From positions 1 to 64,000 of the forward strand of contig CAJNDT010000145.1 of NCBI GenBank assembly GCA_905221615.1: 64,000 nt of DNA. The letters run 5' to 3'. The notes under the pieces were generated by a model. That model was not told the origin of the DNA and made no database searches. It saw nothing but the letters and a program-made list of their open reading frames with translations. This DNA is from Symbiodinium sp. CCMP2592. Taxonomy: Eukaryota > Sar > Dinophyceae > Suessiales > Symbiodiniaceae. The position numbers were made by a program, and so were the translations under genes. Positions 1,836-20,200 of this stretch are shown here, piece by piece; the first letter of the stretch is position 1, and each line of letters opens with the position of its first letter.

Positions 1836-4608
1836 AGGCATCACCTTTGCACTTGACCTGTCACAGGCATTCGATACTGTCTCCCGTAGCGAAATCTTGT
1901 CTCTGCTAGATGAACTAGGCGCGGATCCACCCCTGCAAAAACTGATACACGGCCTACATCATCGATCCAAGTACAGGCTCCATTCTCAAGGGGCATACAA
2001 GGATGTGGAAACTACCACGGGCATCAAACAAGGCTGCAAGCTGGCCCCCACGTTGTTTTCAGTGCTCACAGGCCGCCTCCTGCACAGGCTGATAGGCACA
2101 TTTGGCTGGGACAATGTCCGCAAATACTTCACAGGGTACGCGGATGACTTCACCATGCATCGCACCATCCGCAACAAAGCGGACGTGGACGCAGCTCACA
2201 AGATGATCCTTGAGCTTTTGTCGGAGGTAGCGAAACTAGGCCTGCGAGTCAACCCGACCAAATGTGCCATTCTCGTCAAGCTCAGCGGCAGAGAGGCCGA
2301 GGCCACGCTCCAGAAGCACACCTGCTGGCTCCCTGACCAGGACGGAAAACTCCAGAGGCACTGGAGACTGGGCAAACACAAGTCCTTCCCCGCCTACAAG
2401 CTTGAGACGCAACTCAAGTACTTGGGCATTCAAATTTCCTATGGGAATTTTGAAATGCAGACGTTGCGATTCCGTATAGCGGAAGCAGCCAAAAAGCTCC
2501 AGCAGGTTAAGCGTTTTGTTTACAACCGCAGAACCGCGGGGCCAATGGCCAGACTGAAGGTCTGGTTCACTACTGTATGGGCCACCTTGGTCACGGGCCT
2601 TCCCGAAGTCGGCCTCACGGAGGAGACAGCCAGGCATCTCAGAGGTTGGTACGCGCACAAGCTACGATCCGTGCTAAATCAGCCTGTCCACGTCAGCCAC
2701 ATCTCAACAGCTGACCTGTACCAGCTATATTCGATTCAGGACCCGGTAGCTAAAATCCAAGCTCGGATGGCTTCTAGACTCAGACGGCTGTGCAAACGAA
2801 CCGACATCCCAACCCGCGAGGCCGCCACTTCCGCCCAGCCGGAGAGCACTCCCAGTGCACCTACGGTGCAGCATGGCCCATGGGCCAGGCTGCGCTCCTC
2901 AGCGTCGGACTCGGCTACAGGCCCACACCTTTCTGCAACAGCTGTGCAGGGTGATGTCACGCGCCTAAGCCATGTCATACAGGACTTACAAGACATGCTA
3001 CAAGAGGTGGCAAACCTTTCGGCGAGCACTGAAGCCTCGCAGCAGCGGCTACACACCTGCCCTCACTGCGAATCTGGCTTCGCCTCTGCCCATGGCTTAC
3101 ATATGCACATTACAAGGATGCATCGCGAACACGTACAGAGGTACATTCCTCCCTCCTTTGATCGAAGTCGGCACTCTAAGGACGGATTACCAGTATGTTC
3201 CGCATGCAACAAGGCTTTCCATCAATGGAAGGGCTTGCGCGACCATCTGTTATCGGGAGCCTGTACGCAACCCGATCGACTGCGTCAGCTATCTCTCACC
3301 ACTGAGGAACAGCTGCAAGGTCAAGCCCTCAGAAGCCTGGCGGCCCTTCGCGCCACGGTGCAAAGCTCGCGAAGAGATCAACTTAGCATCATCGCTGCCC
3401 GGCCGGAAGCTCAAGAACTCAAGCACAGGTGCATTCTGTGCGGTTTCTGGACCCCAGACCATACGAAGATGAAGAATCATCAACGTCAGGCTCATGCACA
3501 GGACTGGCAGCGAGACGGTCCGGCGGCACTCCAGCTCTGCCAGGCGTATACAGTGCAGATGATCAAAGGGCACCCCTGCCCCTTCTGCAAGCTGCCGGTT
3601 TATGACAAACGTAAGCACCCAGAACAGTGCATAGTTCTGTTTCAAGTCCTGCTTGGGTGGCACAAGGTGCAGGGAACGGACACGATGCGGGAACAATGTT
3701 CCAGGCCTCAACCAAAGACCGCGGTGACAATGTCCCTCAGTGGCTTTTTCGGGACAGCGGACTGGTCTGTTCCCTCCGCTGCATCTACCCCGGTCGCCAC
3801 GGCGACAACGAGCGCCGCCAGTGGAACTCTCCCACCAGGCCTGTACTCTCGCATGAGGCACATGGTAAACTCAGGCAACACCTGCTATGTCAATGCGACC
3901 ATACAAGCCCTACTAGCCGCAAGCAATCATGTGTCCAATGTAGCGGAACTGGGACCACTGGTCGAACATTGCATCAGTTCGGAGGCGGATCCAATGGACA
4001 CAAGGCCCATAAACCCTCCGAGCCTTTTTGCCCTTCGGTCACTAGTGCCTAGATGGCGATTCGATGGCCGCCAACATGATGCCTCCGAATTTGTCACAAG
4101 CCTGCTAGAGCATAACACAGGGACCCTACAACCCGTGCGTTGGGAGGGTCGCACTAATGGACTCCCAGAAAGCGAGGATGACGGCCTTACGCCGCTGCTG
4201 CTGCCTCTTTCCTCGGACTGTCGTACACTGCAGCAGGCCTGCACGGCATGGTACAACCACATGTTCCAACGCGCCCTGGCATGGGCCCCAGACATCCTAC
4301 CAGTCACAGTTGCCCGATGGATGGAAGGAACCAAACGACGCACCCCGCTCGACCTGCGCAGGCAAATCTCATTGCCGTCTTGGACGGAGGGACAGGACCG
4401 CCAATGGCACCAATACTCCGTCATTTCGGGAGTTTTTCATGTAGGAGCAGAAATACACTCCGGTCACTACCGGTCTTTCTGGATCCACCCGCATGGAGGC
4501 GCGCTATACGTCGGTGATGATGCCACCCGCCCACACCCAGCCTCGGCCTCAGATCGCAAACATGTTCTGGAAGATTGCTACCTCCTTTTCTTGAGAAAAC
4601 AGGAGTGA
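1836..4608 (+). CDS. Reverse transcriptase-zinc finger-USP polyprotein, 5'-truncated (copy A)
   Basis: This is the C-terminal two thirds of a LINE polyprotein, open to the stop at 4606-4608. The start is missing because the copy is truncated. The RT palm is visible: ALDLSQAFDTVS with a catalytic Asp at the very start, GIKQGCKLAPTLFS, then GYADD at about 2138-2152. Three or four Cys2His2-type fingers follow (for example CPHCESGF with a paired His block near 3052-3125, and CSACNKAF near 3200). The C terminus is a ubiquitin-specific-protease-like domain with a Cys box (NSGNTCYVN, Cys codon 3883-3885), GRQHDASEF, and a His box (SGHYRSFW, His codon 4465-4467), so the catalytic residues are retained. 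RT copies element RNA; a USP domain would remove ubiquitin from target proteins. The endonuclease is absent in this copy. The poly-valine frame upstream (from 1312) is microsatellite. Confidence 0.85.
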
Positions 4609-4613
4609 CTCTG

Positions 4614-4634
4614 ACTCACCCTCAAGGGGTGAGT
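4614..4634 (+). promoter_or_regulatory. Stem-loop just after the RT-USP stop (copy A)
   Basis: Perfect 8-bp stem (ACTCACCC with GGGTGAGT) and loop TCAAG, starting 6 nt after the stop codon. Copy B has a different stem-loop at the equivalent place. Confidence 0.6.
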
Positions 4635-4661
4635 GCTGGCCCTCCAAACCTCGGAATGCGT

Positions 4662-4712
4662 GCACCAATAGGGTGCCTGTGCATGGGAAGGCCGGACCCC
4701 ACAATAGGTGGG
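4662..4712 (+). repeat. Two mini-hairpins with loop AATAG (copy A)
   Basis: GCACC-AATAG-GGTGC at 4662-4676 and CCCAC-AATAG-GTGGG at 4698-4712, both with perfect 5-bp arms and the same loop, 36 bp apart. They lie between the RT-USP gene and the next ORF. Confidence 0.7.
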
Positions 4713-4790
4713 CATGGCCCCCCCCACGTCAAGGCCAAGCATGCTTTAAGCATGCGCAGGCTTACCCGCAGCTTTTCAGGCTGACCCAGC

Positions 4791-5473
4791 ATGGCTGACA
4801 AGATTCACAGCCCAGACCACAAACGTGGTCGAACCGCATCACCCCTAGCTTCAGATTCACTCATGGGAGAGCCTTCTGAGCCATTTGGGGTCGACACTCG
4901 ACGCCAGACAGCCGGTGGTGGCAAGCAGCGGCCAGGCAGAGCCCTGCATGCCCTCTCCAACGCCGAACTTACTCAAGGCTTTCTGCTGCATGAAGAACAG
5001 CTTGCTCTACTACAACTTCAAGCCTCGCTGGTGTTCAAGCTCCCCACGGATGCCCCCCTTGCACAGGCTCTCTCCAAGGCCGTAGCCGCGTGGCAGAAAG
5101 GCCACACGCCGGGGAAAGCGCACCCACTGGGTTCATGTGCACACTTTACAGCGCGGGAGCAATGCTCGTCCAGCTAGCCCAGTCTCAACAGAAACCACCC
5201 GGCATTGACACCGCTCACTTCAAGGCCTTCATCAAGCTCGTTGAGGACTTTGGCGAAGCGCCACATGAAGCCGTGGTGCATCTGGTCGCGCACTGCTCAG
5301 CTCGACAGAACGCACTCAAGACACACCTCATTCTTGACTTCCGACCGGTTCTACACTCCCCGCTTGAATACACCTCGCTGATCGCAGCCCTCCTGGACTC
5401 TTATGAGGGGGAGCGCCTCGGCAAGAAGGCGCCTGGTGGCCTGGCTCGGAAGGCGAGGGGTAAAGCGGGCTGA
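4791..5473 (+). pseudogene. Lys/Arg-rich ORF2 protein, frameshifted (copy A)
   Basis: Homologue of the 15417-16211 gene of copy B. The N terminus reads MADKIHSPDHKRGR from 4791. The frame runs to the block HPLGSC, after which the homologous reading continues in another frame (SAGAMLVQLAQ to KAPGGLARKARG, ending at 5473). One frameshift therefore lies between about 5135 and 5160. A CAATG mini-hairpin sits at 5157-5167, next to the break. Function is unknown. The basic tail and the position directly after the polyprotein would fit an RNA-binding, ORF1/Gag-like role, but that is only inference. Confidence 0.6.
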
Positions 5474-5481
5474 GGGAGTGG

Positions 5482-5552
5482 TGCCAATGGCAGCTGCTGG
5501 CGAAAGCCTGGCTCATATAGGATCTTTTCTAGCTGTCATAGGAGCAATGCTC
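5482..5552 (+). repeat. CAATG mini-hairpins after ORF2 (copy A)
   Basis: TGC-CAATG-GCA at 5482-5492, 9 nt after the ORF2 stop, and GAG-CAATG-CTC at 5542-5552. Confidence 0.65.
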
Positions 5553-5731
5553 GAAATCGCCCTGCTCCCGGAGTGTGCTGTCAGCCAAAAGCTGTACCAC
5601 TCCAGTGCACAATAGTAAACACCCAGGCAATCACGTCTGTGGAAAAAGGATCTGACCTACCGCCGTGCCTACATCATCACAACAGCCTGCCATCCTGTAT
5701 GGTATCGCTTAGCAGTGCCAAAAATACTGTC

Positions 5732-6040
5732 ATGCAGCCTTTCAACTTACCAGGTTTGCCTCCTGACTCCCTCCCAGCCTCACTGCCGCACAACATGCAA
5801 GGGCTGCAGTGCCAAATCGATCTCGACTACTACGCTGCTCAATGGGATATCATCAGAGAGCTGGGCCTAGACAAGCCTGCAACGACCACTGCGACCTCGG
5901 CAACTTCGACTGACAAGGAGCGGACCGCGACAACTAAGGAGCCAACCGCTACATCATTACCGTCTGGTCGTCAACGACCTCCGACGCCACCCCGCTCACC
6001 GAAGAAGCGCCAAAACACAGTGAATAAGATTCCCAGTTAG
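5732..6040 (+). CDS. Small Pro-rich ORF3 protein (copy A)
   Basis: I chose the ATG at 5732 because it aligns the product (MQPFNLPGLP...) with the 83-aa ORF3 of copy B (MDLTRFADLPG...). The shared end is LPSG followed by a RPPTPP block and a basic tail. About 102 aa, Thr/Ser/Pro-rich in the middle, probably disordered. No known domain. Its presence at the same place in both copies is the main reason to call it a gene. Confidence 0.5.
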   Translation: MQPFNLPGLPPDSLPASLPHNMQGLQCQIDLDYYAAQWDIIRELGLDKPATTTATSATSTDKERTATTKEPTATSLPSGRQRPPTPPRSPKKRQNTVNKIPS

Positions 6041-6094
6041 CAACAATGCCATTTCTGAGTCTCGGGTGCGCACAATGAGCGGCCCTAACACTGA

Positions 6095-6113
6095 AGGAGG
6101 TCAATGACCTCCT
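6095..6113 (+). repeat. CAATG hairpin with 7-bp arms, after ORF3 (copy A)
   Basis: AGGAGGT-CAATG-ACCTCCT, a perfect 7-bp stem and the longest of the family, 55 nt downstream of the ORF3 stop and upstream of the kinase-like gene. Confidence 0.8.
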
Positions 6114-6170
6114 GCACCACGCTGCCAGGACTTGAAAAAGCTCCGGAACCTAAAAGCCCTCTGCTAGCTC

Positions 6171-8102
6171 ATGCCATCCCGCAGGTTGTCCAGCTGTCAG
6201 GCCCTCTACACTGTGCCTGCGCTTTCCATGCGGTTGGACACAGAAGGATCAAGCCTCAGGTCCAGCCTTTCCTTGCTCTGGATCGGACATGCGGCTAGTT
6301 CTGACACCGCGGCCCTGGACAGCCTTCACATCCGATTGGGACTCGACCAGGACCCACATCGCATGGCAACGGCGATTGTGGCAGCAATGACGGACCATGC
6401 ACAAACTGTGCAGCGAGTCCCCACTCCCTGCACCCTGGCGGGGCCCACATCGGCAGCATGCCTCAGCCTCTTGAAAGGCACGGTCGGCAAGACCGTTGGG
6501 CGAGGCTACACGAGCACGGTCTACCTGTCCCACGACGACCCAAACTTTGTGATCAAACAGGTCAAGGCGGAGCACGAGGCGGACTTTCGCAAGGAATTGC
6601 ATCGTGTCACACGACTCCCGCCTCTCTCCGTAATCAACACCATCTACGTGGCTGACGGCCCTCGTGCACTCATGCCGCGCCTGTGGTCAGCTCCCCGCTC
6701 TCTCACCGGGGACACAGTCCAGCGGCTCAAATTCGACATCGCGGCTGCACTGCAGATGCTGCACTCTGCCCAGATAGTACATGGGGACGTGCACGCAGGC
6801 AACATCATGGTTCGGCACCAGCCGGCCAGTTTCGTGCTGATTGACTATGGCGGCTGTTCTGGTGAGGCCATCTACCCCCTGAGCCATGGCTACGGTGCCA
6901 TGGGCTATGGCGGTGACCTGCATCGGCCACCGAACCCAAGCCGGTCAGGACGGCGAATGGAGATTTCTACCGGCTGAGCCAAACGATCCTCAAACAATTC
7001 ATGTCGGACGAAGAGCCCGCCAAGCGCCGCAAAGGCAGCGGCGTCAATGACGGAGTCAGCCGGGGCATTCCTAGTCACATGAAGCGCGAATTGCAGCTAT
7101 GGCTGGAGCGGGACCAATGGCCGCAGCCCATCTACCCCAGCTCCCCCTTCCCTGCTGGTTCTTGGACAGATACCTCCTTCAACCCCACCGTCACCGTGCA
7201 CGCTGGTTTGTGGCGAGCCAATGGTGAGCTCCGGACGGATACAGCCATCCATGCCCGCTCAGATGACAAGTTTGGAAATAACAATGGCTCCCTGGTCCCA
7301 GAACAGGCAGACCCATCGGATCCCTTCCCTGGCCTTGGGTCCTGGGAAAAGTCTGCTGTGTGGGCCAAGTTCTACCTTTCTACCGAATTGAGGACATGCG
7401 GCCGCCATCTCAGGTACGTCTACCAGGAAATCTTCCCCTGGGAATCCTACTCCAACCAGGACGGCTACTTGGTGCTTGACAAGCCCCCTCCTCCACCTCC
7501 GATTAAGACTACTGATCCGAAGGAGGAGGCGGTGTCAATGACAACTCCAGCATCCCAGCGTGGGAGCAAGGCTCACTCTACCCCGGAACCGGTGCCACCT
7601 TCATCTCCTACTACCCAAGCTGACATGGGGTCAGGTACTTCATAGCAGGAGCGACAAGGAGCATCCGCCAAGCTTCCAGGCATCTGGGGTGACCCACCAG
7701 CCAGCCCGGTGGAGGACCAGGACCAACTGCCGGCGATTCCCGCTCCATGCCAGCCCCAGCCTCAGCCCATACTGACTTCGGCTGAACCACCAGACTCAAT
7801 CAGCCCTCTTACCAGTAGGCCAGGGATATGACCCGAACGCCAGATTCCGCGCGATGGCAGCTTCAGGAGGCAGCGACGTCCCCTTCGACACCAAGGGCCA
7901 CATGCTTCAGTCGGGGGATGACTTTGTGGCTCGCGATCTGGCACGGCCTACCAAACCAGGATCTCGAAAAACTACCATCGAAGATTGGACCCGCAGCCTT
8001 CACACTGCCGCGGACTTGCTGCGCGGGGTCGCGGGGGATATGCAGGCCTACCCAGAACGCTTTCTCGAGGACTGCCCGTTCCCGAGGCCCCCGCCGCCTT
8101 AA
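6171..8102 (+). pseudogene. Kinase-fold protein, disrupted (copy A)
   Basis: The first open segment (6171-6977) holds the kinase-like core: a glycine-rich turn (VGRGYTSTVY), a lysine strand (NFVIKQV), a catalytic loop HGDVHAGNIM and a metal-binding LIDYGG. This pattern resembles small atypical kinases of the Bud32/RIO/APH type. Compared with copy B there is a frameshift near 6935-6945. Reading continues in 7001-7645 (GSWTDTSFNPTVTVHAG, then YSNQDGYL and a Pro run). A TAG at 7643-7645 then interrupts the frame, which afterwards continues with a GIW block matching the B C terminus (GIWAEMD). A further frame change near 7775-7815 would add the last open stretch (7854-8102). A hairpin pair follows the final stop by 9 nt, supporting 8102 as the ancestral gene end. 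Confidence 0.65.
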
Positions 8103-8110
8103 AGCAGCTG

Positions 8111-8151
8111 GGACAATGTCCGCCACTGTCATCACGATGGCGACAATGTCG
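8111..8151 (+). repeat. CAATG mini-hairpin pair (copy A)
   Basis: GGA-CAATG-TCC at 8111-8121 and CGA-CAATG-TCG at 8141-8151, loops 30 bp apart, 9 nt downstream of a stop codon. The spacing is like the pairs in copy B. Confidence 0.75.
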
Positions 8152-8468
8152 TCCTGGCGCTGTCTCGGCCGGCACTCAAATTTTAATTCTCCATGAGCCT
8201 GCAGGCTAGCACGCCGTTGTTCTTTAACATGGCCCCTTTCTTTTCGGACGACGCTGCCATGCAAATTGCAGTCACGGTACGAAATCACCGGTCAGTAGGC
8301 AAGTGCTAAACTAGTCGTCGTGCAGAACCAGGCGAGATTTGGCACCCAGACACTCAGCTCCTACATCTATCTGCAGCAACTAAACATGACTGTGCTTATC
8401 GGCTCTCAGACCCAGATAGCCGGTCTGGACGTCCCTGACCCAGCATCGCCACGAAGCGAGCACAAGCG

Positions 8469-9410
8469 ATGTGGCGGCTCCGTAGTAGCTCGGGATGCAT
8501 TCCCATGGACCTGGATGGGTCTGATGAGGAGGCCCCGGAGCCGGCGCAGAAGTGTCGCCGCCCGACACTAACAACACCAACAGTTCAGAAACCTCTTCAG
8601 TCGGCCTTCCTGACGGCTCCAGAGGAAGCGGCACAAGAAGAGGAACGACAAGGCTCTGTCTGCTCAGGGCTGTGTTTGTACGCCCCACAGGCTCAGGCGC
8701 CAGGCATATGTCTCCATTCCCCTCCTGACATGGACGAAATGGAGCACAAGTTCACTCTGTGTGCCGTGGAACAGGCTGCTGCGGACTACCTACATCGCCG
8801 CTGGGTCACCTTTGAGCAACTGGATGCCCTGCTGGACATTATGCCCACCACCTCGGCCTGTCGCAATGCATCGGTGGCACTGCCACAGTCTACGGACCAA
8901 CACATGGTCACATTCGGAGCATACCAGCAGGGGCCAATGGCCGGCCTGAGGACACCGACTCACCGTTTTCCGATGGCGACGTGTCTCCTCAACACGGTCG
9001 TGCACACTGTGGCTGGACGCCATCCACGCACGACCCTCTTCCTGGCGCGTAACATGGCCTCTGGATTGCACACAGACAATAACCAAAAAGGGGTGAACAA
9101 CCTCCTGATCCCACTTTCCAACTTCGAGGGTGGCCACCTCTTTGTGGAGGACGACGCCGGGGATTACTCACTGGACTCCGTTGGACCCAGAGGTCACGTT
9201 CTCCCCGTGACCCTGCCCTACCTTAGCTTTGACGCCTCACGACGACATCTGGTACTGCCGTGGACGGGACGCCGTCTCATACTCGGCACTTATCACATTC
9301 GAGAGGCGGACAAGCTCTCCGCACATTCCGCTGTACACCTGAAGTATTTAGGTTTTGAGGTGCGTCGCACAGATACCGGCTCCTCTAGCTCGCAGCGGCA
9401 GCACAGCTGA
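8469..9410 (+). CDS. 2-oxoglutarate/Fe(II)-oxygenase-like protein (copy A)
   Basis: Open frame of 313 aa; the ATG at 8505 (MDLDGSDEEAPEP) is an equally plausible start. The C-terminal half shows the double-stranded beta-helix signature: an HxD iron motif in SGLHTDNNQ, followed by NLLIPLSNFEGGHLFVED, and a distal His/Arg pair in RRHLVLPWTGRRLILGTYH. This family oxidises protein, nucleic-acid or small-molecule substrates with 2-oxoglutarate as co-substrate; the substrate here cannot be told. Copy B has its counterpart at 18364-19323 in the same relative position, with the same HxD...GG...H...R order but low overall similarity. The gene is the last one before the 3' end in this copy. Confidence 0.7.
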   Translation: MWRLRSSSGCIPMDLDGSDEEAPEPAQKCRRPTLTTPTVQKPLQSAFLTAPEEAAQEEERQGSVCSGLCLYAPQAQAPGICLHSPPDMDEMEHKFTLCAVEQAAADYLHRRWVTFEQLDALLDIMPTTSACRNASVALPQSTDQHMVTFGAYQQGPMAGLRTPTHRFPMATCLLNTVVHTVAGRHPRTTLFLARNMASGLHTDNNQKGVNNLLIPLSNFEGGHLFVEDDAGDYSLDSVGPRGHVLPVTLPYLSFDASRRHLVLPWTGRRLILGTYHIREADKLSAHSAVHLKYLGFEVRRTDTGSSSSQRQHS

Positions 9411-9959
9411 TATGTAGCCGCGAGCTGGCGTGGGGGGGGCAATGCCCGACAAATTTTTATTTAGCTCAAGTTCTGGAGGCAGCTGCCTATCCCTCCCAGC
9501 AGGACAAGAGCATGTCCATAGGTTCTTTCAATTTTGACCCACAGCCTAGGCTGACGTCATCTGCCCAGGAATGTTAGGTGATCTGAAATGCATGCAGATG
9601 CACACTGCACATGCGCCTGCGAGAGCCACAACGACTAACACATGCCTACGCTTGCCAATGCTGGCAAACTGTCTCTGAGGTCAGACGACACTCTCCCGGC
9701 TGTCTCCGCTGGTGCCGATCTTCTGGCATGGCCGGACCAGTACATGCAACAATCTGAAGCTTGATGATGCTTGGCAACCTGCAAACTCGCTTTGGCTGAT
9801 TACTGCCAGTTAGTTCAAAGCCTGTAGGCCGCCACATCTAAAGGTCTTTGACCTGGGCTGATCAGCTATAGGGTCTGAGTCAGTTTCACACCAAGTGAGG
9901 GCACCGCGGCAATCGCCCGCTATGTGCAGAGCCCGCTCGCACAGCGTTCAATTGAAAAA
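9411..9959 (+). other. 3' untranslated region and conserved 3' end of copy A
   Basis: No ORF. The final stretch (about 9928-9959) is almost identical to the end of copy B: GCAGAGC, then CGCT-CGCAC-AGCG (a 4-bp stem), then the palindrome TTCAATTGAA, an A run and the TAG tail. Upstream, a CAGTTTCAC block is also shared. This is the expected place for an RT template-recognition signal. Confidence 0.75.
9437..9447 (+). repeat. CAATG mini-hairpin after the oxygenase gene (copy A)
   Basis: GGG-CAATG-CCC, 27 nt after the stop at 9410. Confidence 0.6.

Positions 9960-10049
<90 letters not shown>
9960..10049 (+). repeat. Perfect (TAG)30 tail of copy A
   Basis: Thirty uninterrupted TAG units between the 3' end of copy A and the 5' end of copy B. 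Confidence 0.97.
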
Positions 10050-10341
10050 CCGCCACAAGTGCTCAAGCGGCCGCGCTGAATGAGAGGTTTCGAACAGGCT
10101 TGGGGCGCAACTGCTGTGCTAGAGGTTTCAACCGGGCCCTTTTCTGAACAGTAAAGGTTTGTGTCTCCTTCTACGCCATGGTCCTCTCCCTTTTCTCACA
10201 GGAGCTGCTTTGAGCCGCCAGGTCCCAATTCCTGGGCCCAGACTCTGTTTAAAACATTGCAACACTGGGTAGGCGGTAGGGTTTCCACCTCCGCGCGGTG
10301 GAGGGAGTCATTAGGCTTCTGTCTCTTGACGAAAGTAGCGG
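10050..10341 (+). other. 5' leader of copy B
   Basis: No ORF of note. It contains two similar blocks, AGAGGTTTCGAAC and AGAGGTTTCAAC, 40-50 bp apart. No promoter could be assigned. Confidence 0.4.
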
Positions 10342-13300
10342 ATGGCGCAATTGCCAGTGCACTCACAAAACTTTGCATCTCTTCGTAAGAATTCGTTCAA
10401 GACAGCATGTAGAAGGACAGTCCGTAGTGACGGGCCCGTACCATACCGAGGGCAGGTTCTGACACCTACCCTGGTTGATCGTCTGGGGGTGCGCCCCCCA
10501 CCCACTCGAAGAGAGCTTCAGTCACAGACTGCTGACTCCCCTGCATATGGCACAGCCTCCCGCAGGGCAGGAAGGTTGGAAAGATCCATTCGAGTTCTTT
10601 CGTGGAACGCGGGCCACCTAGGCCAACAGCAATGGGGCGAACTCAAAACGTGGCTAGCAGCTGAAGCCTCTCATCACTGCGACGTCCTCATATTGCAGGA
10701 AACGCACTGGACTGAGACCAGTGAATTCAGCGTTTCTGGGTGGTACTGTATCTCCTCAGCCTCGGAGTCTACCAAACCCAACACCCGGCCTAAACAAGCA
10801 GCGAAGCGAAACACTCGGCAAGAACCGCGAGCTCCATCCACGACTCGCGCTGATGGAGTCATGATCCTATTCTCTCCCAAGTTCGTCCCCAAGAGCTTAC
10901 GCTGGAAGGAGTGGAGCCCGGGTAGGGTCTTAGAAGCTCGTGCAGACATTGCAGGTACTCGGCTGGTTGTCCTCGCGGTGTACCAACACGCTTGGTCTTC
11001 AGCCAAGACCATCCAGTCCAATAAGGATGACCGTGCTAAGGTACTATCAGTCATGTCCAAGGTGATCAAGCAGGTGCCTAAGAGGGACTCCCTTATTGTA
11101 GCAGGCGATTTTAACACTTCCCTGCGTCCGAGCTCTCCATTGGTGGGAATGCACGTGAAGCCACCCACTGAGGACCGCCCTGACGAATCCAACTTGTTTA
11201 ATCTGCTGCTCAGGCTGCGTTTGGTTGCCCTTAACACCTGGCAATGTGACCATATAGCTACCTTCTCACAAGGAGGCGTGGAGTCGCAAATTGACTTCAT
11301 TCTAACCAAAGAATCTACGGCGGGAGGCAAAGCCAAACGGTCAGCCCCTTGGGTGGACTGTCCGTTGGGCAGCTGGAAGAAAGGAGGGCATTACCCACTC
11401 AAAGCTGACGTACCCCTCCAACACCACTGGCTGCTCCCATCCCACAAGCCCAGCACGCGCCGGTATGATTCACTAGCTCTACAGGCCTCAGTCAGGGAGG
11501 AGGACGATACGGCCAAGGCCCTGCACAACTGGATCGCTTCCAGAATTGACACCTGCCAGGACCCCAAGGCATGGAATGCGTTGCTTTTGGAAGGTGCAGA
11601 ACGCTTTTTCCCAAAAATTCCCAAAAGAAGACCGATCCCGCTGGAATCGGAAACCCGTCGCATGTGGCGGGCCCGCACCCATGACAGGGCTGCGAACACC
11701 ACTCCCTCAGCACAGCTGATCGAGTCACCTAAAGCAATGGCACAGCCTCCTAATCAGAACACGCCACGTCCGCCGGAAACCGAAGCTGAGCTGGCACAAG
11801 TGGCACACCGCCAGGCTGTGAAACAAGCAAAGAAAGATCGAATTGCGAGTTTCATATCGGAGGTGGACGCGTGTCTAGCTGAAGGTGATCAACATATCTC
11901 CTTCCAGACCCTCAAAAAGCTGCAGCCTTGGCAGCCTGCGCGCAGAGCTCAGCTAAAGGACAACACAGGACATTTACTAGGTCCAGCGCAGGAACTAGCA
12001 GCCCTCAGGGACTATGCCAATCAGGTATTTGCGGCCCACCCTCCGTTACGGACAATGCATGGAGCTTTCCCTGCTTTGGAGCCGCCCAAACTAGCAGCTC
12101 ACATACATTCCATCAAGCCTAATAAAGCTGTTCCTGACGGAGCGGCACCTGCGGCTGTATGGAGACTGTGTAGCGATCTCGTTGCACCGGTCCTCTCCGA
12201 ACACGTAGCATCCAAGCAGGCCGAGGACAGTCTAGAATCCGACCTCGTAGACGCTGATCTCTGCTTAATTCCCAAGCCGGGCAAGCCCTCTGACAAACCC
12301 GCAAACCTGAGACCCCTGGGCATCCTTAGACCTGACGCTAAGGGACTGGCGGGAGCGGCCAGAGAAGCGCTTCAACCACTGACACTCTCGTTCCTCAAGC
12401 ACATGCCACAGTTCGCTTATCTACCAGGTCGGGGGCTGTCAGACGCGCTAGAACGCGTGGTGCATCACTTGCGAGAGGCTCGATCCCTGTTAGAACAGGC
12501 CCACCCCACGAGACATGCCTTGCAACAAGGCACACAGGCCCCAGCCTTAGTCGGCGGCCTCACCTTTGCTCTTGACCTCAGCCAAGCGTTTGACACTGTC
12601 TCTCGCCAAGAGATCATCGACCTTCTTCAGAGAGAAGGGGCCGATCAGGACACAGTCCATCTCGTTCAGGCTCTACATGATGGGTCTCGTTACGTCCTTC
12701 ACGCGCAGGGAGATTCCACCTCTGTTGAAACCACAGCAGGCATTAAACAAGGATGTAAGCTCGCCCCCACACTCTTCTCGTTCCTTACAGGTGACCTTTT
12801 CCGCTCTTTGGTTGACCTTTTCGGTGCTGAGCAGGTCTTGAAATTCCTGACAGGATATGCCGATGATCTCACGCTCCATCGGACTATCCGCTCTGACAAG
12901 GACCTCAGGGCCATTCATGCGCTCATCGCAGCGCTACTTGAGGAGGTCCGCAAACACCGCCTACGCGTCAACATTAGCAAGTGCGTCATCTTGGTGAAGT
13001 TAGCGGGTAGAGAATCCCAAAACGTGATGAACAAACACGGCTGCTGGATCACCAACTCCAAGGGCGAGCAGGTTCGCGGATGGCGCATAGGGCCCAATAA
13101 ATCGTTCCCCGCCTTCCAGTGGGTCTCCTGTAGCAAGTACCTGGGGGTTATGATCTCCTACAACCACTTCGAGCTGCAGTCCTTACATTACCGCATAGGG
13201 GAAGCAAAGCAAAAGCTGCATCAAGTCCGCCAGTTTGTCTACAATCGCCGGCACGCGAGCACCATGTCGAGACTTAAGGTTTGGCAAAGCACAGTCCTGA

Positions 13301-15192
13301 GCACACTGACGACAGGCCTCTCAGACGTCGGACTCAGCGAGGAGTCGGCCAAGCAGCTACGCAGTTGGCATGCTTACAAGGTGCGATCAGTGCTGAACTT
13401 GCCAGCACACACCAGCCGCATCACCACTAAGGATCTCTTCCAGCTTTATAGCATTCAGGACCCAGTTCAAGCGATGCAGGTCAAGCTCAGGAAGCGACTC
13501 CGCAAACTTGAGCGACGTGCAGCCAGAAGCCCAGATATCACAACCGATCCTTCTGTCTTGCAAGTCATCCGGGACAAGCTGCATTTCATGTCACAGCTCC
13601 CTGAAACAGTTGAGCACCCTGTAGCCCTACATGCATGCACACTCTGCGATGCCTCTTTCGAGACAGCAAACGGGTTACACTTACACAAGTCGAGAGTGCA
13701 TCCAGCCAGCATTGACCGATTTGTGCCATCAAGCTTCGATCGACAACTCCACGCGGTGGATGGGATGCCGCAATGTGCCGCTTGCATGCGCAAATTTCAT
13801 CAATGGAAAGGTCTTCGTGACCACTTGTTGTCAGGAGCATGTCCGGAACCCCAGAAGCTTCGAACTCTGAACGTGACTGACAAACACTCAAGTCACCCTG
13901 AGGTAAGGACCCTGTCCCAGCTGCGACAGGACATTGCCCAACTCCCACAACATCGAATAGCGGTGATCTCAAAGACAGCGGAGGCCCGGGTCCTGATCCA
14001 TAGGTGCCTCACGTGTGACTTCTGGACTTTCGATCACACTAAAGTCAAGTCACACTTCCGTCAGGCGCATCCTAAGGACTGGTCACGGCTGCACAAGCGT
14101 GCAGTCTCTATATGTCAGGGTTTCTCGCCTCACCTTGCCAAGGGACACCCGTGTTCATTCTGCGGTTACAAGGTCTATGATCGTAGACTGCACCCGGAAC
14201 AATGCCCCGTACTTTATCAGGTGAGCACACAGTGGCTGCGAGGGCAACCGGAGGTAGAGGAAGCCGTTACTGCTCCCCCCTCCAAGCCCCAAGAACGGTC
14301 ACTGACCCACTTCTTTAAGTCACGGTCGAATGGCACAGCCTCCAATCAGTCGAGCACAGCTCGTCACACCCCGGCAGACAAGCAGGCGTCCGATCCGCAG
14401 TCCTCAGGACAAGCGGAAATTAGACCCGAAGGAGTGCACAAACGCGCTCTGACTAACACGTCCAACTCGTGTTACGCCAATGCCCTATTCCAGGCTCTGC
14501 ATCAGATCTCGAGCTTTGGGTATGATCTAGGTGCTTTCCAGTCCGTCCTATCCCATCTAGGCGACGAGCGAGCCCCCAGATTACTGAACCTGTTCGGCTT
14601 GTTTGAATTTCGCCATGCAATCTCAGGCTGGCGACTTGACGGCAGACAGCATGATGTTTCAGAGCTGCTTCTGCATATGCAGTCCAAGCCTTTCGGCTCC
14701 CTTCAACAAACCCAGTGGCAGGGTCGTACAGATGGTGAGGTTGAGGATTCAGATGTGGGAGTCAGCCCACTCCTTCTTCCCCTCCCGCCTGGCCCTTTGT
14801 CACTCTCGACTTGCTTACGGCTGTGGGAGTCCCAGATCTTCTCCCGCGCGCTAGTCTGGTCACCTGAACTCCTAGCAATTGTGATTTGCCGCTGGCAGGA
14901 TGGAGTCAAGAACACTCAGCCGTGTCTTTGGTCAGGCCGCACCACGGTGCCTGTATGGACCTCAAGTGATGCTCGAACTCAGCGTCACTATCAGGTCATA
15001 GCAGGAGTTGCCCATTTTGGGGACTCCCTATCTTCTGGGCACTACCGCGCTTTTTGGCCAGAGGACCCAGCGGATACCACCTCTCAGGTTTGGATCTCTG
15101 ACGATTACAGGTTTCCGGAAAAGGCCTCAGCGGCCTTGAACCTGTCCATCTCCAGGAATGTCTACATGCTCTTCTTGCAACGAATTCGCTAG
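10342..15192 (+). CDS. Endonuclease-reverse transcriptase-zinc finger-USP polyprotein (copy B)
   Basis: A 1616-aa ORF; the ATG at 10342 is the first in frame and precedes the endonuclease by about 80 residues. Domain order: (1) apurinic-type endonuclease at about 82-355, with SWNAG, LILQETHW, GDFN (Asp 256), QIDFIL (Asp 318) and GGHYPL (His 350); (2) reverse transcriptase at about 560-1000, with ALDLSQAFD (Asp 745), GIKQGCKLAPT and GYADD (Tyr 839, Asp 841/842); (3) three to four Cys2His2-type fingers at about 1097-1290 (for example CTLCDASF and CAACMRKF blocks); (4) a USP-like deubiquitinase at about 1367-1610, with a Cys box NTSNSCYAN (Cys 1377), GRQHDVSE, and a His box SGHYRAFW (His 1567). 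All catalytic residues are present. The endonuclease would nick the target and the RT copy the RNA there. The USP could protect element proteins from ubiquitin-dependent turnover or process a fusion (inference). Confidence 0.9.
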   Translation: MAQLPVHSQNFASLRKNSFKTACRRTVRSDGPVPYRGQVLTPTLVDRLGVRPPPTRRELQSQTADSPAYGTASRRAGRLERSIRVLSWNAGHLGQQQWGELKTWLAAEASHHCDVLILQETHWTETSEFSVSGWYCISSASESTKPNTRPKQAAKRNTRQEPRAPSTTRADGVMILFSPKFVPKSLRWKEWSPGRVLEARADIAGTRLVVLAVYQHAWSSAKTIQSNKDDRAKVLSVMSKVIKQVPKRDSLIVAGDFNTSLRPSSPLVGMHVKPPTEDRPDESNLFNLLLRLRLVALNTWQCDHIATFSQGGVESQIDFILTKESTAGGKAKRSAPWVDCPLGSWKKGGHYPLKADVPLQHHWLLPSHKPSTRRYDSLALQASVREEDDTAKALHNWIASRIDTCQDPKAWNALLLEGAERFFPKIPKRRPIPLESETRRMWRARTHDRAANTTPSAQLIESPKAMAQPPNQNTPRPPETEAELAQVAHRQAVKQAKKDRIASFISEVDACLAEGDQHISFQTLKKLQPWQPARRAQLKDNTGHLLGPAQELAALRDYANQVFAAHPPLRTMHGAFPALEPPKLAAHIHSIKPNKAVPDGAAPAAVWRLCSDLVAPVLSEHVASKQAEDSLESDLVDADLCLIPKPGKPSDKPANLRPLGILRPDAKGLAGAAREALQPLTLSFLKHMPQFAYLPGRGLSDALERVVHHLREARSLLEQAHPTRHALQQGTQAPALVGGLTFALDLSQAFDTVSRQEIIDLLQREGADQDTVHLVQALHDGSRYVLHAQGDSTSVETTAGIKQGCKLAPTLFSFLTGDLFRSLVDLFGAEQVLKFLTGYADDLTLHRTIRSDKDLRAIHALIAALLEEVRKHRLRVNISKCVILVKLAGRESQNVMNKHGCWITNSKGEQVRGWRIGPNKSFPAFQWVSCSKYLGVMISYNHFELQSLHYRIGEAKQKLHQVRQFVYNRRHASTMSRLKVWQSTVLSTLTTGLSDVGLSEESAKQLRSWHAYKVRSVLNLPAHTSRITTKDLFQLYSIQDPVQAMQVKLRKRLRKLERRAARSPDITTDPSVLQVIRDKLHFMSQLPETVEHPVALHACTLCDASFETANGLHLHKSRVHPASIDRFVPSSFDRQLHAVDGMPQCAACMRKFHQWKGLRDHLLSGACPEPQKLRTLNVTDKHSSHPEVRTLSQLRQDIAQLPQHRIAVISKTAEARVLIHRCLTCDFWTFDHTKVKSHFRQAHPKDWSRLHKRAVSICQGFSPHLAKGHPCSFCGYKVYDRRLHPEQCPVLYQVSTQWLRGQPEVEEAVTAPPSKPQERSLTHFFKSRSNGTASNQSSTARHTPADKQASDPQSSGQAEIRPEGVHKRALTNTSNSCYANALFQALHQISSFGYDLGAFQSVLSHLGDERAPRLLNLFGLFEFRHAISGWRLDGRQHDVSELLLHMQSKPFGSLQQTQWQGRTDGEVEDSDVGVSPLLLPLPPGPLSLSTCLRLWESQIFSRALVWSPELLAIVICRWQDGVKNTQPCLWSGRTTVPVWTSSDARTQRHYQVIAGVAHFGDSLSSGHYRAFWPEDPADTTSQVWISDDYRFPEKASAALNLSISRNVYMLFLQRIR
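10519..10557 (+). repeat. CACAG mini-hairpin pair 1 (copy B)
   Basis: CAGT-CACAG-ACTG at 10519-10531 and GG-CACAG-CC at 10549-10557, loops 28 bp apart, inside the N-terminal coding region just before the endonuclease domain. Confidence 0.75.
11707..11747 (+). repeat. CACAG mini-hairpin pair 2 (copy B)
   Basis: TCAG-CACAG-CTGA at 11707-11719 and GG-CACAG-CC at 11739-11747, loops 30 bp apart. It lies in the endonuclease-RT linker. Confidence 0.75.
14332..14363 (+). repeat. CACAG mini-hairpin pair 3 (copy B)
   Basis: GG-CACAG-CC at 14332-14340 and CGAG-CACAG-CTCG at 14351-14363, loops 21 bp apart. It lies in the finger-USP linker, which is longer than in copy A. Confidence 0.75.
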
Positions 15193-15211
15193 CATCATCG
15201 CTAGGTGATGC
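15192..15211 (+). promoter_or_regulatory. Stem-loop at the RT-USP stop (copy B)
   Basis: GCATCA pairs with TGATGC around an 8-nt loop, starting at the last base of the stop codon. It is at the same position as the copy A stem-loop at 4614-4634 but has unrelated sequence. Confidence 0.5.
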
Positions 15212-15279
15212 ATTCCGGCCCAGCTTCGTCCTCAAGGGCACTGCGGGGCGCCCGTGCGTGAGAAGCCTATAGTCAATTG

Positions 15280-15322
15280 AAAGTTGGCATAGGCCACCTC
15301 ACGTCAAGGCCAAGTGCGTCAT
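15280..15322 (+). promoter_or_regulatory. Conserved intercistronic block before ORF2
   Basis: TTGGCATAGGCC followed by CACGTCAAGGCCAAG is shared with copy A (GGGCATGGCC then CACGTCAAGGCCAAG, 4711-4740), although the surrounding spacers have diverged. This suggests a signal for expressing the next gene. Confidence 0.5.
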
Positions 15323-15416
15323 GCGCGCACGCGGACATGCACATACCGCAATACTTTTTCCTCTCAATCAGCTCGCCCTCTTTTTGTATAGCTTCCGCTC
15401 CGACTACTCGGCCGGC

Positions 15417-16211
15417 ATGACCGCTTCCCCTGTCGCCGTCAAGAGTCCGGAGCACAAACGCTCCAGAAACGGTACAGACAATGAGGACGCATCGGGAATG
15501 GATTTTTCTGAAGAGCCTCCACTCGAGTCACTCTCGCCTGCGGCCAAGGCCGCTGCCCTGCCGAGGCAGCAAGACCAGCCTCGCCGCAAATCAGTCCCGA
15601 GGCAGAAAGGACCTGGTGCGATCCAAGGGTTTGGGCAAGGCACCCAGCCTCGAGCGCAATCGGGTGCCATCCAGGCGCTGAGCCCGGAAGAGCTCACCAA
15701 AGCCTTCCTTGTGCACGACGACCAAATGAGCCTGCTGCAACACCAGCTATCACTGGTGTACAAACTACCTCAAGACCATCAACTTTCGAAGGCATTAGTT
15801 GCGTCTGTGAAATCCTGGCAGGGAGGTTTGAAGAAGCTGCGCCAAGGAGAACCTCACCCCGAGGGATCATGCTCGAATGCGGTCTCCCTAGTTCTCCTCC
15901 ACGAACTGACCAAGGGCAACCCTCCAGAACACGTGGACAAGACGGAGTACGGCAAGCTCCTGAAGGTGGTGGACTCCATGATCAACATCACTACCGACAA
16001 GACCAAGCTGGCACAGGAAATAGTGCACTGCTCTGCTAAGCCGAACAAGCTCAAGACGCACGTTATCCTCGACTTCAGGGTAGCCATCTACTCTGACCTC
16101 ATGCCCTACCTCTCCCTCCTCGCCTCCCTCTTTGACTCCCATGATGGCTTTGAACGCCTGGGTCGCAAGGCGCCGGGAGGACTGGCTCGCAAGGCTCGAG
16201 GCCGTCCGTGA
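15417..16211 (+). CDS. Lys/Arg-rich ORF2 protein of unknown function (copy B)
   Basis: I chose the ATG at 15417 (MTASPVAVKSPEHKRSRNG) because it aligns with the start of the copy A homologue. About 264 aa. The N-terminal third is charged and low-complexity. The middle (about 85-235) looks helical (SPEELTKAFLVHDDQMSLL, LAQEIVHCSAKPNKLKTHV). The C terminus is the strongly conserved basic block RLGRKAPGGLARKARG. It directly follows the polyprotein gene. A nucleic-acid-binding, Gag/ORF1-like role would fit the position and basic tail but no family is recognised. Confidence 0.65.
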   Translation: MTASPVAVKSPEHKRSRNGTDNEDASGMDFSEEPPLESLSPAAKAAALPRQQDQPRRKSVPRQKGPGAIQGFGQGTQPRAQSGAIQALSPEELTKAFLVHDDQMSLLQHQLSLVYKLPQDHQLSKALVASVKSWQGGLKKLRQGEPHPEGSCSNAVSLVLLHELTKGNPPEHVDKTEYGKLLKVVDSMINITTDKTKLAQEIVHCSAKPNKLKTHVILDFRVAIYSDLMPYLSLLASLFDSHDGFERLGRKAPGGLARKARGRP

Positions 16212-16227
16212 GCTTGGCCTAGTTGAA

Positions 16228-16261
16228 GCACACAGTGCACTAACTTCCTCAGCACAGCTGA
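16228..16261 (+). repeat. CACAG mini-hairpin pair 4 (copy B)
   Basis: GCA-CACAG-TGC at 16228-16238 and TCAG-CACAG-CTGA at 16249-16261, loops 22 bp apart, starting 17 nt after the ORF2 stop. Confidence 0.8.
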
Positions 16262-16433
16262 TGTTCTGATCCGTCTTGCACTCTTCACTCTCGTACAGCG
16301 TGACTAGCAAGGCTGCTGATTCTTTCAACAAAGTTCCAGCTGCGCATCAAAACGCAGGGAGCCTTTCGTGAGCAGATCACTTCGTTCCACTTGATTTCCT
16401 GAGCGTGCCAGCCTGGCTCGAGCCCTTAGCACT

Positions 16434-16685
16434 ATGGATCTCACACGGTTTGCGGACCTACCGGGCCCTGACCAAGTCCCACATTTCCTGAATCTGGTAC
16501 ATCAGCTGGACGAGATTCTCAAGCGCAAGGCCTCGCAACTCTATACAGACCCTGGCTCGGCGTCTTCTACCAGCTCTCAGACTGCTGAACGATGCACTTT
16601 GCCCTCTGGCAAGGCCCGTCCTCCAACACCGCCAGCTCCTAAACATCGACGAACTGACGCGGCTCCAGAACAGGACGCTACGTAA
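16434..16685 (+). CDS. Small Pro-rich ORF3 protein (copy B)
   Basis: 83 aa, starting MDLTRFADLPGPDQV, with a short amphipathic segment (LVHQLDEILKRK), a Ser/Thr-rich middle and an LPSGKARPPTPPAP end shared with the copy A ORF at 5732-6040. No known domain. Probably a short disordered or adaptor-like protein; real mainly because it is kept in both copies. Confidence 0.5.
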   Translation: MDLTRFADLPGPDQVPHFLNLVHQLDEILKRKASQLYTDPGSASSTSSQTAERCTLPSGKARPPTPPAPKHRRTDAAPEQDAT

Positions 16686-16819
16686 GCTCTTCAGCGAACT
16701 AGGCACAGTCGGCGGAGCCGGCTACCAGCGAGCAAAACTCACTGCCATGCGTTTTTCCTGCTCTTGCACTCAACTGCTTTGCAACTAGGTCACAGGGCTC
16801 AAGCTACCAGTGGCAGGTA

Positions 16820-16852
16820 GCACACAGTGCAGCACGGATTCGTCACAGACGA
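16820..16852 (+). repeat. CACAG mini-hairpin pair 5 (copy B)
   Basis: GCA-CACAG-TGC at 16820-16830 and TCGT-CACAG-ACGA at 16840-16852, loops 21 bp apart, ending 20 nt before the kinase-like start. Confidence 0.8.
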
Positions 16853-16872
16853 TATCTCCCACTCACGCTGGG

Positions 16873-18093
16873 ATGGATCGTGCTCCATATCCTGATGGAG
16901 TGCATGAGGCTCTTGGTCGGAGCCATATGCCTGGACTTCGACGACCGGTTGACCCCCAAGTGACTTCCGCCATCTCACCAGAGCTCTTAGGCGTGAAGAT
17001 CGCAAAGGGATACGCCAGCGCGGTCTTCAATTCCAGTGCTGCAAACTTTGTGCTCAAGAAAGTCACGAGGCCTCAGGAAGAGTACATGGCCAGAAGAGAG
17101 TTTAGCAGATTATCGAGATTCCCGCCGATCAACACCATCATCGAGGCTTTCTGGCAGCAAGGCCCAACGCTGTTACTGCCACGTCTGTACCCTGCCCATA
17201 TCCCCTCCATGACAACGGACCATGTCGTCAATCTCGTCGCTGACATCCGGTCTGCCCTCAATGCAGTGCATTCCAGCCAACTGGTCCACGCGGACATCCA
17301 CATGGGCAACATCATGGTGCGCTACGACCCTCCCACCTATGTCCTGATTGATTTCGGCGGCACAGCGGGGGAAAGTGTTTATCCTCTCAGCTTGGGCTAC
17401 GGTGCCCTTGGCCAGGGAGGAATGCTTCATCGTCCACCTCACGAACTCATGGAGCGACCCACCAGGACCGTCAGAGGCGACTACTACAGGCTCAGCAAGA
17501 CGATCTCCGTCGAAGTCGTGGGCAACAAGTGCTGGCGCGACACTGCGTCGGGTTTCCCGATGCCCCCGAAACTCCCCAAGCACCTTCGCGTCGAGCTGGC
17601 AGAATGGGAGAATCTCGCTGGCCTCACTCCACCCAAATGGCCAGAATCTGCCTTTCCCGGAGGAAGCTGGTACGAGACTGCCATCGATCCCTCGATCACC
17701 GTGCAAGCCGGCTTGTATGATGAAACCGGCAACGTCCGACTGGCCACCGCCGTTTTCTCCTACTCCAAGCAGCAAAAATCCAATGTATCCGGGCTCTTCG
17801 GGCCAGAAGATCCCACACGGGCCTCTCTGGACTCCGGAAGCTGGGAGGAATCTGCTGCTTACGCTAGGTTCTTCCTATCTTGCAGGCTCAGGACCATGGG
17901 CAGCCACATCCGGACCATGTACACGGAGGTCCTGCCGTACCAAAAGTACAGCAACCAGGATGGCTACCTCATGCTGGAGAATGCTCTCGAGCACCCTCCA
18001 CCTCCACCACCTCCTCCGGCTGCCAGCTCGAACGAGCCAGCGCCCTCGACACCGGCTACTGAGCTGCAGGGCATTTGGGCGGAAATGGACTAG
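16873..18093 (+). CDS. Kinase-fold protein with conserved C-terminal extension (copy B)
   Basis: The ATG at 16873 (MDRAPYPDGVHEALG) is the first in-frame ATG; the frame is open further upstream without one. 406 aa. The N-terminal half carries a minimal kinase core: KGYASAVF turn, FVLKKV lysine, catalytic loop HADIHMGNIMV (Asp and Asn kept), and LIDFGG. The spacing resembles Bud32/RIO/APH-type small kinases rather than canonical Ser/Thr kinases. The C-terminal half (GSWYETAIDPSITVQAG, GSWEESAAYARFF, YSNQDGYLML) is conserved with copy A but unrecognised, and ends in a run of prolines and GIWAEMD. It would phosphorylate an unknown substrate. No signal peptide or membrane segment seen. Confidence 0.7.
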   Translation: MDRAPYPDGVHEALGRSHMPGLRRPVDPQVTSAISPELLGVKIAKGYASAVFNSSAANFVLKKVTRPQEEYMARREFSRLSRFPPINTIIEAFWQQGPTLLLPRLYPAHIPSMTTDHVVNLVADIRSALNAVHSSQLVHADIHMGNIMVRYDPPTYVLIDFGGTAGESVYPLSLGYGALGQGGMLHRPPHELMERPTRTVRGDYYRLSKTISVEVVGNKCWRDTASGFPMPPKLPKHLRVELAEWENLAGLTPPKWPESAFPGGSWYETAIDPSITVQAGLYDETGNVRLATAVFSYSKQQKSNVSGLFGPEDPTRASLDSGSWEESAAYARFFLSCRLRTMGSHIRTMYTEVLPYQKYSNQDGYLMLENALEHPPPPPPPPAASSNEPAPSTPATELQGIWAEMD

Positions 18094-18105
18094 GCTTCAA
18101 TCGCA

Positions 18106-18139
18106 GGACACAGTCCACTCAGCGGCATATGGCACAGCC
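18106..18139 (+). repeat. CACAG mini-hairpin pair 6 (copy B)
   Basis: GGA-CACAG-TCC at 18106-18116 and GG-CACAG-CC at 18131-18139, loops 24 bp apart, 13 nt after the kinase-like stop. Confidence 0.8.
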
Positions 18140-18179
18140 TCCGCCACGCGGTTACTGTAACCAATTTGTCGCGGGAATA

Positions 18180-18213
18180 GGACACAGTCCAAATCAACCT
18201 GAGTCACAGACTC
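18180..18213 (+). repeat. CACAG mini-hairpin pair 7 (copy B)
   Basis: GGA-CACAG-TCC at 18180-18190 and GAGT-CACAG-ACTC at 18201-18213, loops 22 bp apart; a second pair in the same intergenic spacer as pair 6. Confidence 0.8.
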
Positions 18214-18363
18214 TGTTCCAACGCCTACTGCCTACAGCACTGGCCTCAGCCCGAGAAAACACCTGCGCATCTGTCTTGAGCGCAGTTGTCTGCACTTTTC
18301 AGCTCCCGTTTGCTTGAGCTCAGCTTAATCTCGGCTACTGGCTCCCCACTTGCGCGGGCGCAC

Positions 18364-19323: not shown

Positions 19324-19330
19324 TTCGAAT

Positions 19331-20166: not shown

Positions 20167-20200
20167 TCAGCAGGTGAGGACTAAAGTGTAGCTCTCAGAA

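Follow-up and report, generated by a model that had tools for sequence, protein, structure and literature searches.

Hairpins with lineage-specific loops along giant multi-ORF long interspersed nuclear elements of a dinoflagellate genome

Does the loop of a short, recurrent hairpin identify the element that carries it and, if so, what might read it? The question is raised by copies A and B, two long interspersed nuclear elements (LINEs) in the first 64,000 nucleotides (nt) of contig CAJNDT010000145.1 of Symbiodinium sp. CCMP2592 (forward strand; the whole stretch is called the window here). Both are LINEs with multiple open reading frames (ORFs) of a 1.1 Gb dinoflagellate genome, and a preliminary description of the window had reported that the words CAATG in copy A and CACAG in copy B are often flanked by complementary arms. 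All coordinates are positions in the window, and relatives were drawn from the same genome (5383 contigs). In counts of loop words, a hairpin is a loop word flanked by complementary arms of at least 3 base pairs (bp) unless stated otherwise, and give positions as the first base of the loop; the preliminary description gave the arm starts, which are 3-7 lower.

The hairpin sets are confirmed, and are stronger than first claimed. In copy A (1840-9480) we recovered the reported counts, with 13 of 27 CAATG words in hairpins, and these 13 (loop starts in Table 1) are the only hairpins among the 117 CAATG words on the plus strand of the window. In a ranking of every 3-8-nt loop that had four or more hits, CAATG came first in copy A (0.5 expected, binomial p = 5e-16) and CACAG came first in copy B (10340-25600), where 22 of 58 words lie in hairpins against 1.0 expected (p = 1e-23). 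Over 300 dinucleotide shuffles, CAATG hairpins averaged 0.17 with a maximum of 2, CACAG hairpins never exceeded 4, and the best of any 5-nt loop reached at most 4 in copy A and 6 in copy B; the enrichment of arms over shuffled controls, on which the preliminary description had staked its claim, is therefore present. Only 2 of 59 CAATG and 1 of 88 CACAG words on the minus strand of the window are in hairpins. As had also been stated, CAATG hairpins are absent from copy B (none of its 19 CAATG words has arms of at least 2 bp) and CACAG hairpins are few in copy A, which has two of 3 bp each, at 6713 and 9402. Copy A contains, beyond the CAATG set, four CACTG hairpins. With 60 nt of context on either side, predicted stem pairing averages 0.42 over 41 sites, against 0.21 over 372 other hairpins (p = 0.002) and 0.30 over 25 other hairpins whose loops have C and G at their ends.

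For comparison we scored other LINEs, namely eight 3.6-kb stretches together with a LINE at the window end (61387-63648, minus strand; matches to reverse transcriptase (RT) and RNase H) that served as a control lacking hairpins of this kind. The words found in hairpins were 4 of 81 of the A type, 2 of 76 of the B type and none of 50 of the C type (types as set out below). The matching 3.6 kb of copy A has 4 of 10 CAATG words in hairpins, and that of copy B only 2 of 9 B-type words, so that for B-type loops the control is a weak one.

The sets recur in relatives of copy A. A query with its RT gave 118 matches at 56-100% identity (117 candidates scored of 2984), and all 30 loci sampled, of about 4 kb each, have CAATG as their top 5-nt loop (its complement where the locus is reversed); these loci include the window copy and one locus 100% identical to copy A in RT. 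An alignment of 33 sequences contains nine hairpin columns (a hairpin in at least four sequences), each held in 21 to 33 of the 33, three sequences being non-homologous at the first five; one column alternates between CAATG and CACTG. Between copy A and its relative L045 (83% identity), the core is identical at 17 of 19 sites and three pairs are kept at all 19, compared with 27 identical cores among 124 hairpins with other loops (p = 1.6e-8). Conservation per position lies at 0.89-1.0 between -5 and +8 relative to the loop and at 0.63-0.79 at +9 to +12 downstream, with a gentler drop upstream (0.88-0.94 at -9 to -6, 0.68-0.74 at -11 and -10). An ORF1-only relative, L044, has 11 of 28 A-type words in hairpins, and its cores are identical to those of copy A in 4 of 4 cases versus 20 of 54 chance hairpins. 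In L059, whose matching pieces are ~70-79% identical, 6 of 15 A-type words lie in hairpins, and CAATG stands where copy A has its exceptional CACAG at 6713. L060, a fragment, has no hairpin set.

Lineage B behaves alike: CACAG is the commonest 5-nt hairpin loop in five relatives, down to ~67% identity. L041 (77% identity to copy B) has 13 of 35 CACAG words in hairpins, and 11 of 13 cores are identical to those of copy B versus 16 of 138 chance hairpins (p = 5e-8); the two changed cores show a T-A to G-C exchange (16844) and a G-U pair (18205). CACAG is the top loop in L062 (7 of 11) and L063 (4 of 5) and the top 5-nt loop in L061 (5 of 12; ~67% identity), and the pair of hairpins after the ORF2 stop of L061 has changed stems that are complementary again around an unchanged loop. 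In the B-like part of L042, 3 of 21 CACAG words are in hairpins, and the copy B cores are identical in 3 of 3 cases versus 7 of 64 chance hairpins. We considered L042 as a copy with mixed loops and rejected this, since its CAATG hairpins sit in an A-like stretch downstream. At 77-83% nucleotide identity, hairpin cores are nearly invariant, and chance hairpins are not.

About half of the hairpins lie within ORFs, which could suggest that they arise by chance, base composition or amino-acid constraint. The loop C falls in codon positions 1, 2 and 3 in 2, 7 and 4 cases in copy A and in 2, 3 and 4 cases in copy B, and therefore no amino-acid motif is involved; moreover, non-coding sites are conserved as well as coding ones. 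Together with the shuffles and the conservation of the cores, these data refute such an origin, to which we attach practically no probability.

The relatives also bear on whether the sites could be mobile mini-elements or their scars. Double-hairpin elements of fungal mitochondrial DNA are neighbouring short hairpins with variable stems and are thought to be mobile; the sites described here resemble them in being short and adjacent, with differing stems, and in copy B they come in pairs. However, mobility predicts presence and absence at otherwise identical sites, and there is no gain or loss between copy A and L045, which has 19 of 19 copy A sites; L043 lacks two sites, both removed by one larger deletion. 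The coding sites 2112 and 2543 align gap-free with relatives, and the cores are more conserved than their surroundings, unlike decaying insertions. We reject this origin on the presence of the sites in relatives and on core conservation, and consider it extremely improbable.

A third lineage, C, was found at a locus (C5086, L058) by searching with the ORF2 protein of lineage A (66% identity). L058 is the sole lineage C copy among the candidates scored (103 of 2314 with its own RT-finger region, 150 of 296 with its own ORF2), and its RT-finger region shares ~57-60% identity with most copies of lineage A and 49-51% with B. Its top loop is CGCCG (6 of 8 words), followed by CGCTG (4 of 14), and these 10 CGC[C/T]G hairpins compare with a mean of 0.27 and a maximum of 3 in 1000 shuffles. 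At three homologous sites the hairpin is retained with another loop: GGC-CAATG-GCC in A corresponds to GGC-CGCTG-GCC in C, GAA-CAATG-TTC to GAG-CGCCG-CTC, and GAG-CAATG-CTC to GAG-CGCTG-CTC. The remaining lineage C hairpins are without a counterpart in A or fall in unaligned sequence. Lineages A and C have GG at -5/-4 in 14 of 19 and 8 of 10 hairpins, respectively, versus 0 of 22 in B and 4 of 28 non-hairpin CA[AC]TG words of A.

Counted as A-, B- and C-type hairpins, copy A has 17, 2 and 0, copy B 1, 22 and 3, and lineage C 1, 1 and 10 (approximate chi-square p = 2e-14, some of the counts being small). Loop type is thus element-specific and follows the element family, as the preliminary description had proposed, and loops mixed at random within single elements were looked for and did not occur. 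The stricter idea of one loop per lineage held in part: each lineage has a dominant loop, but lineage A takes both CAATG and CACTG, plus CACAG at two sites conserved in L045. In each of the three types the loop is closed by C and G, so a triloop is the best reading of the sites: A[A/C]U for lineage A, ACA for lineage B and GC[C/U] for lineage C. At the level of sequence, these comparisons support a lineage-specific loop code in three lineages.

The sites are not placed evenly. At 10 of 12 ORF stops a hairpin loop starts within the scored interval of -10 to +50 nt, the observed starts lying between -8 and +47, with the two exceptions both being ORF1 stops; this holds for 3 of 4 stops in copy A (chance 0.13 per stop, p = 0.008) and 7 of 8 in copy B (chance 0.10 per stop, p = 6e-7), and the ORF2 stops of L061, L062 and L063 likewise have a hairpin, at +4, +23 and +20. 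In copy B, 18 of 32 hairpins lie in inter-ORF sequence, which makes up 2314 of 15160 bases (15%; p = 1e-7). The copy B sites are also paired: if arms of at least 2 bp are allowed (33 CACAG sites), 15 of 32 successive distances are 20-34 nt, whereas 2000 random placements on copy B gave a mean of 2.6 and a maximum of 9 distances of at most 40 nt, and random subsets of its 58 CACAG words gave at most 12. In 11 of the 33 sites the arms are just 2 bp long, the usual frame being ATG[G/T]-CACAG-[A/C]CTC.

Because the hairpins favour stop codons, the main rival to a role in protein recognition is that they serve the translation or processing of a polycistronic RNA, either with a bound protein in termination and reinitiation or as marks for cleavage or trans-splicing; an element with eight ORFs requires some such device. 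Nevertheless, 22 hairpins of the window are inside ORFs (13 in copy A and 9 in copy B), cleavage at such sites would destroy ORF1, and the ORF1 stops are those without a hairpin. The ORF1-only subfamily, in which no second complete ORF was seen, retains hairpins, and reinitiation does not require a private loop for each lineage. We regard this alternative as unlikely, though deserving of attention.

A further possibility is that the sites act in DNA, as cruciforms, as directional protein sites in chromatin, or in complementary DNA during insertion. Our analysis was of DNA alone, and the G-U pair in L041, at 1 of 13 sites, is thin support for RNA. Every site of an element is, however, oriented as its ORFs are, which fits RNA, as a cruciform involves both strands; furthermore, stems of 3-4 bp are short for cruciforms. 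We consider action in DNA improbable.

From these observations, we think it somewhat probable that proteins bind these hairpins, as cis-acting sites, on the sense RNA of a giant LINE family. A loop kept within a lineage despite stem changes, and differing between lineages, is what one would expect if a protein recognised the letters of the loop on a generic stem. More tentatively, we hypothesize that co-resident lineages carry a private, element-wide RNA identity code, with the triloop changed in concert at the lineage split, that is read by an element protein in a packaging-like assembly step; sites near stops may load the protein where it is made. At each site a short stem, usually of 3-4 bp plus the closing C-G pair, would supply the shape and the triloop the identity mark of the lineage. 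An element-encoded protein would assemble on some 10-30 such sites along its own RNA and pass over the RNA of sister lineages in the same genome, the outcome being a selectively assembled ribonucleoprotein. Action in RNA, a reader encoded by the element and selective assembly are what we infer from the comparisons above. The binder would most likely be encoded in ORF1, in its zinc fingers or in the linker between endonuclease and RT, with ORF2 as second candidate; we place it in ORF1 because the ORF1-only subfamily keeps the hairpins, an argument that makes such a binder plausible at best.

Several points weigh against this proposal. The stems are short and their predicted pairing in context (mean 0.42) is moderate, and compensating exchanges, which bear on RNA versus DNA action, are mostly missing because the cores hardly change. 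Assembly does not require the preference for stop codons, which points to translation. Sites are clearly paired in copy B, but in copy A pairing is unsupported, with four distances of at most 40 nt versus a random mean of 1.7 and maximum of 7. Specificity is not absolute, given that the two CACAG hairpins of copy A are conserved in L045. Finally, the lineages were all sampled from a single genome, and lineage C is represented by a single copy.

The elements that carry the hairpins are listed with their sites in Table 1. Pfam identifies an RT in both (RVT_1, E = 1.6e-18 in copy A and 3.6e-22 in copy B), preceded in copy B by an endonuclease/exonuclease/phosphatase domain (Exo_endo_phos, E = 4.6e-6); copy A begins inside the RT. 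ORF1 of copy B joins endonuclease, RT and UCH peptidase domains, with C2H2-like fingers recognised by eye, and is followed by ORF2 (assigned to no Pfam family), a kinase-like ORF3, ORF4, three ORFs of ~200 amino acids, and ORF8, the last, with a weak glycosyltransferase match by Pfam. A length of ~16 kb and eight ORFs on one strand, among them the endonuclease-RT-UCH fusion, the kinase-like ORF and the ORF with the weak glycosyltransferase match, make copy B unusual as a LINE. In copy A, ORF2 and ORF3 are each split between two frames; some relatives have these frames open. The AlphaFold model of ORF2 has a pLDDT (predicted local distance difference test) of 53, and a search for a solved structural relative gave none (best E = 0.99). 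Pfam found no capsid family in the element proteins, several ORFs having no known family; Rfam 15 at gathering score gave no match in window positions 1-27000; tblastn found no relatives outside this genome in viral contigs, genome contigs or plasmids; and a partial literature search at the level of titles and abstracts did not turn up any account of such hairpins or of the element itself.

Tandem Repeats Finder (TRF) shows the ends seen in both copies to be simple (TAG)n tails. The two copies lie head to tail, each closed by its tail, and the sequence 3' of the copy A tail is also found 3' of the tail of L044, as if the elements inserted into (TAG)n and so built tandem rows. A stretch at the 3' end is alike in lineages A and B (47 nt, 89%). 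An ORF1-only subfamily, comprising L044 (1000-4700), L054 and L055, shares the lineage A 3' end and is missing the later ORFs; L054 and L055 are placed in it by their 3' parts. The dinoflagellate spliced leader occurs in 429 exact copies in the genome and its reversed control in none, so that the host is very probably a dinoflagellate.

Elsewhere in the window, other enriched loops (CGGT and others at 38-46 kb, AT words) were set aside as belonging to a diverged repeat or simple sequence. Nineteen palindromes of the CAC-CGGT-GTG type lie at 38089-45863 inside a diverged repeat. Long simple-repeat arrays of AAGCAGC, TATATGTA, AAGCAAG and ACCAGGC, and their reverse forms, occupy 54510-59240 and are mirror-ordered around ~57.8 kb, resembling a large imperfect palindrome.

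Table 1. The two elements and their hairpin sites in the window (coordinates span arms and loop; stems separated from loops by hyphens).
Feature	Coordinates	Strand	Loop start	Location and remarks
Copy A	1840-10049	+		LINE starting within RT domain; RVT_1, UCH by Pfam; (TAG)30 tail 9960-10049 by TRF
Copy B	10050-26158	+		LINE of ~16 kb, eight ORFs; Pfam domains; (TAG)n tail 26000-26158 by TRF
GGA-CAATG-TCC	2109-2119	+	2112	Copy A ORF1
GGC-CAATG-GCC	2540-2550	+	2543	Copy A ORF1; lineage C here GGC-CGCTG-GCC
GGAA-CAATG-TTCC	3690-3702	+	3694 (4 bp)	Copy A ORF1; lineage C here GAG-CGCCG-CTC
GAC-CACTG-GTC	3953-3963	+		Copy A ORF1
ACC-CACTG-GGT	5122-5132	+		Copy A ORF2
GAG-CAATG-CTC	5157-5167	+	5160	Copy A ORF2; lineage C here GAG-CGCTG-CTC
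TGC-CAATG-GCA	5482-5492	+	5485	Copy A, directly 3' of ORF2 stop (5473)
GAG-CAATG-CTC	5542-5552	+	5545	Copy A, between ORF2 and ORF3
AGGAGGT-CAATG-ACCTCCT	6095-6113	+	6102 (7 bp)	Copy A, upstream of ORF3; 3 bp in L045
GGA-CACAG-TCC	6710-6720	+	6713	Copy A ORF3; loop-type exception; CAATG in L059
CTG-CACTG-CAG	6745-6755	+		Copy A ORF3
CGT-CAATG-ACG	7042-7052	+	7045	Copy A ORF3
TGT-CAATG-ACA	7533-7543	+	7536	Copy A ORF3; CACTG in L045
Pair GGA-CAATG-TCC and CGA-CAATG-TCG	8111-8151	+	8114, 8144	Copy A, after stop 8102; in L045, deleted from L043
GTGG-CACTG-CCAC	8874-8886	+		Copy A ORF4
GGC-CAATG-GCC	8932-8942	+	8935	Copy A ORF4
CAG-CACAG-CTG	9399-9409	+	9402	Copy A, overlaps ORF4 stop; loop-type exception
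GGG-CAATG-CCC	9437-9447	+	9440	Copy A, 3' of ORF4 stop
CACAG pair	10519-10557	+		Copy B ORF1
CACAG pair	11707-11747	+		Copy B ORF1
GGA-CACAG-TCC	12648-12658	+		Copy B RT domain
CACAG pair	14332-14363	+		Copy B ORF1
CACAG pair	16228-16261	+		Copy B, after ORF2 stop (16211)
CACAG pair	16820-16852	+		Copy B, before ORF3; second stem T-A to G-C in L041
Two CACAG pairs	18106-18213	+		Copy B, after ORF3 stop (18093)
CACAG pair	19331-19361	+		Copy B, after stop 19323
CACAG pair	20201-20238	+		Copy B, after stop 20166
CACAG pair	20991-21022	+		Copy B, after stop 20983
CACAG pair	21845-21877	+		Copy B, after stop 21800
CACAG pair	22233-22267	+		Copy B, before first ATG of ORF8
CACAG pair	23323-23368	+		Copy B ORF8
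CACAG pair	23858-23893	+		Copy B ORF8
CGC-CACAG-GCG	24973-24983	+		Copy B ORF8
Pair of 2-bp CACAG sites	25486-25518	+		Copy B, around ORF8 stop (25501)

It is an open question how the protein of a LINE recognises its own RNA (cis preference). With three related lineages in a single genome, many replicate sites in each element and a loop of three letters that varies with lineage on a constant hairpin, a protein-RNA recognition code becomes directly testable, and related proteins with different loop specificities could result.

Two further known systems help to place these hairpins. The dispersed packaging signals of RNA viruses such as phage MS2 are many stem-loops in coding and non-coding sequence that have a common loop motif and varied stems (PMC6281560), and multiple stem-loops with a common loop motif likewise occur across the element described here. 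The viral signals differ in that coat proteins bind them to form capsids; among the ORFs here, several of which have no known family, a capsid protein was not recognised. In zebrafish L2-type LINEs the cognate protein needs the loop of its own 3' tail and tolerates another stem (PMC4176376). In the stringent-type L2-clade elements ZfL2-1 and ZfL2-2 the LINE protein recognises the loop of its own RNA stem-loop, the stem is required but exchangeable, and the loops differ between related LINEs, as they do here between lineages (PMC4176376). These elements have a single stem-loop, in the 3' tail, whereas ours have many hairpins along the whole element and share a similar stretch of 3' end between lineages A and B. 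The zebrafish L2-type 3' tail is the closest experimental precedent that we found for loop-specific recognition by a LINE protein.

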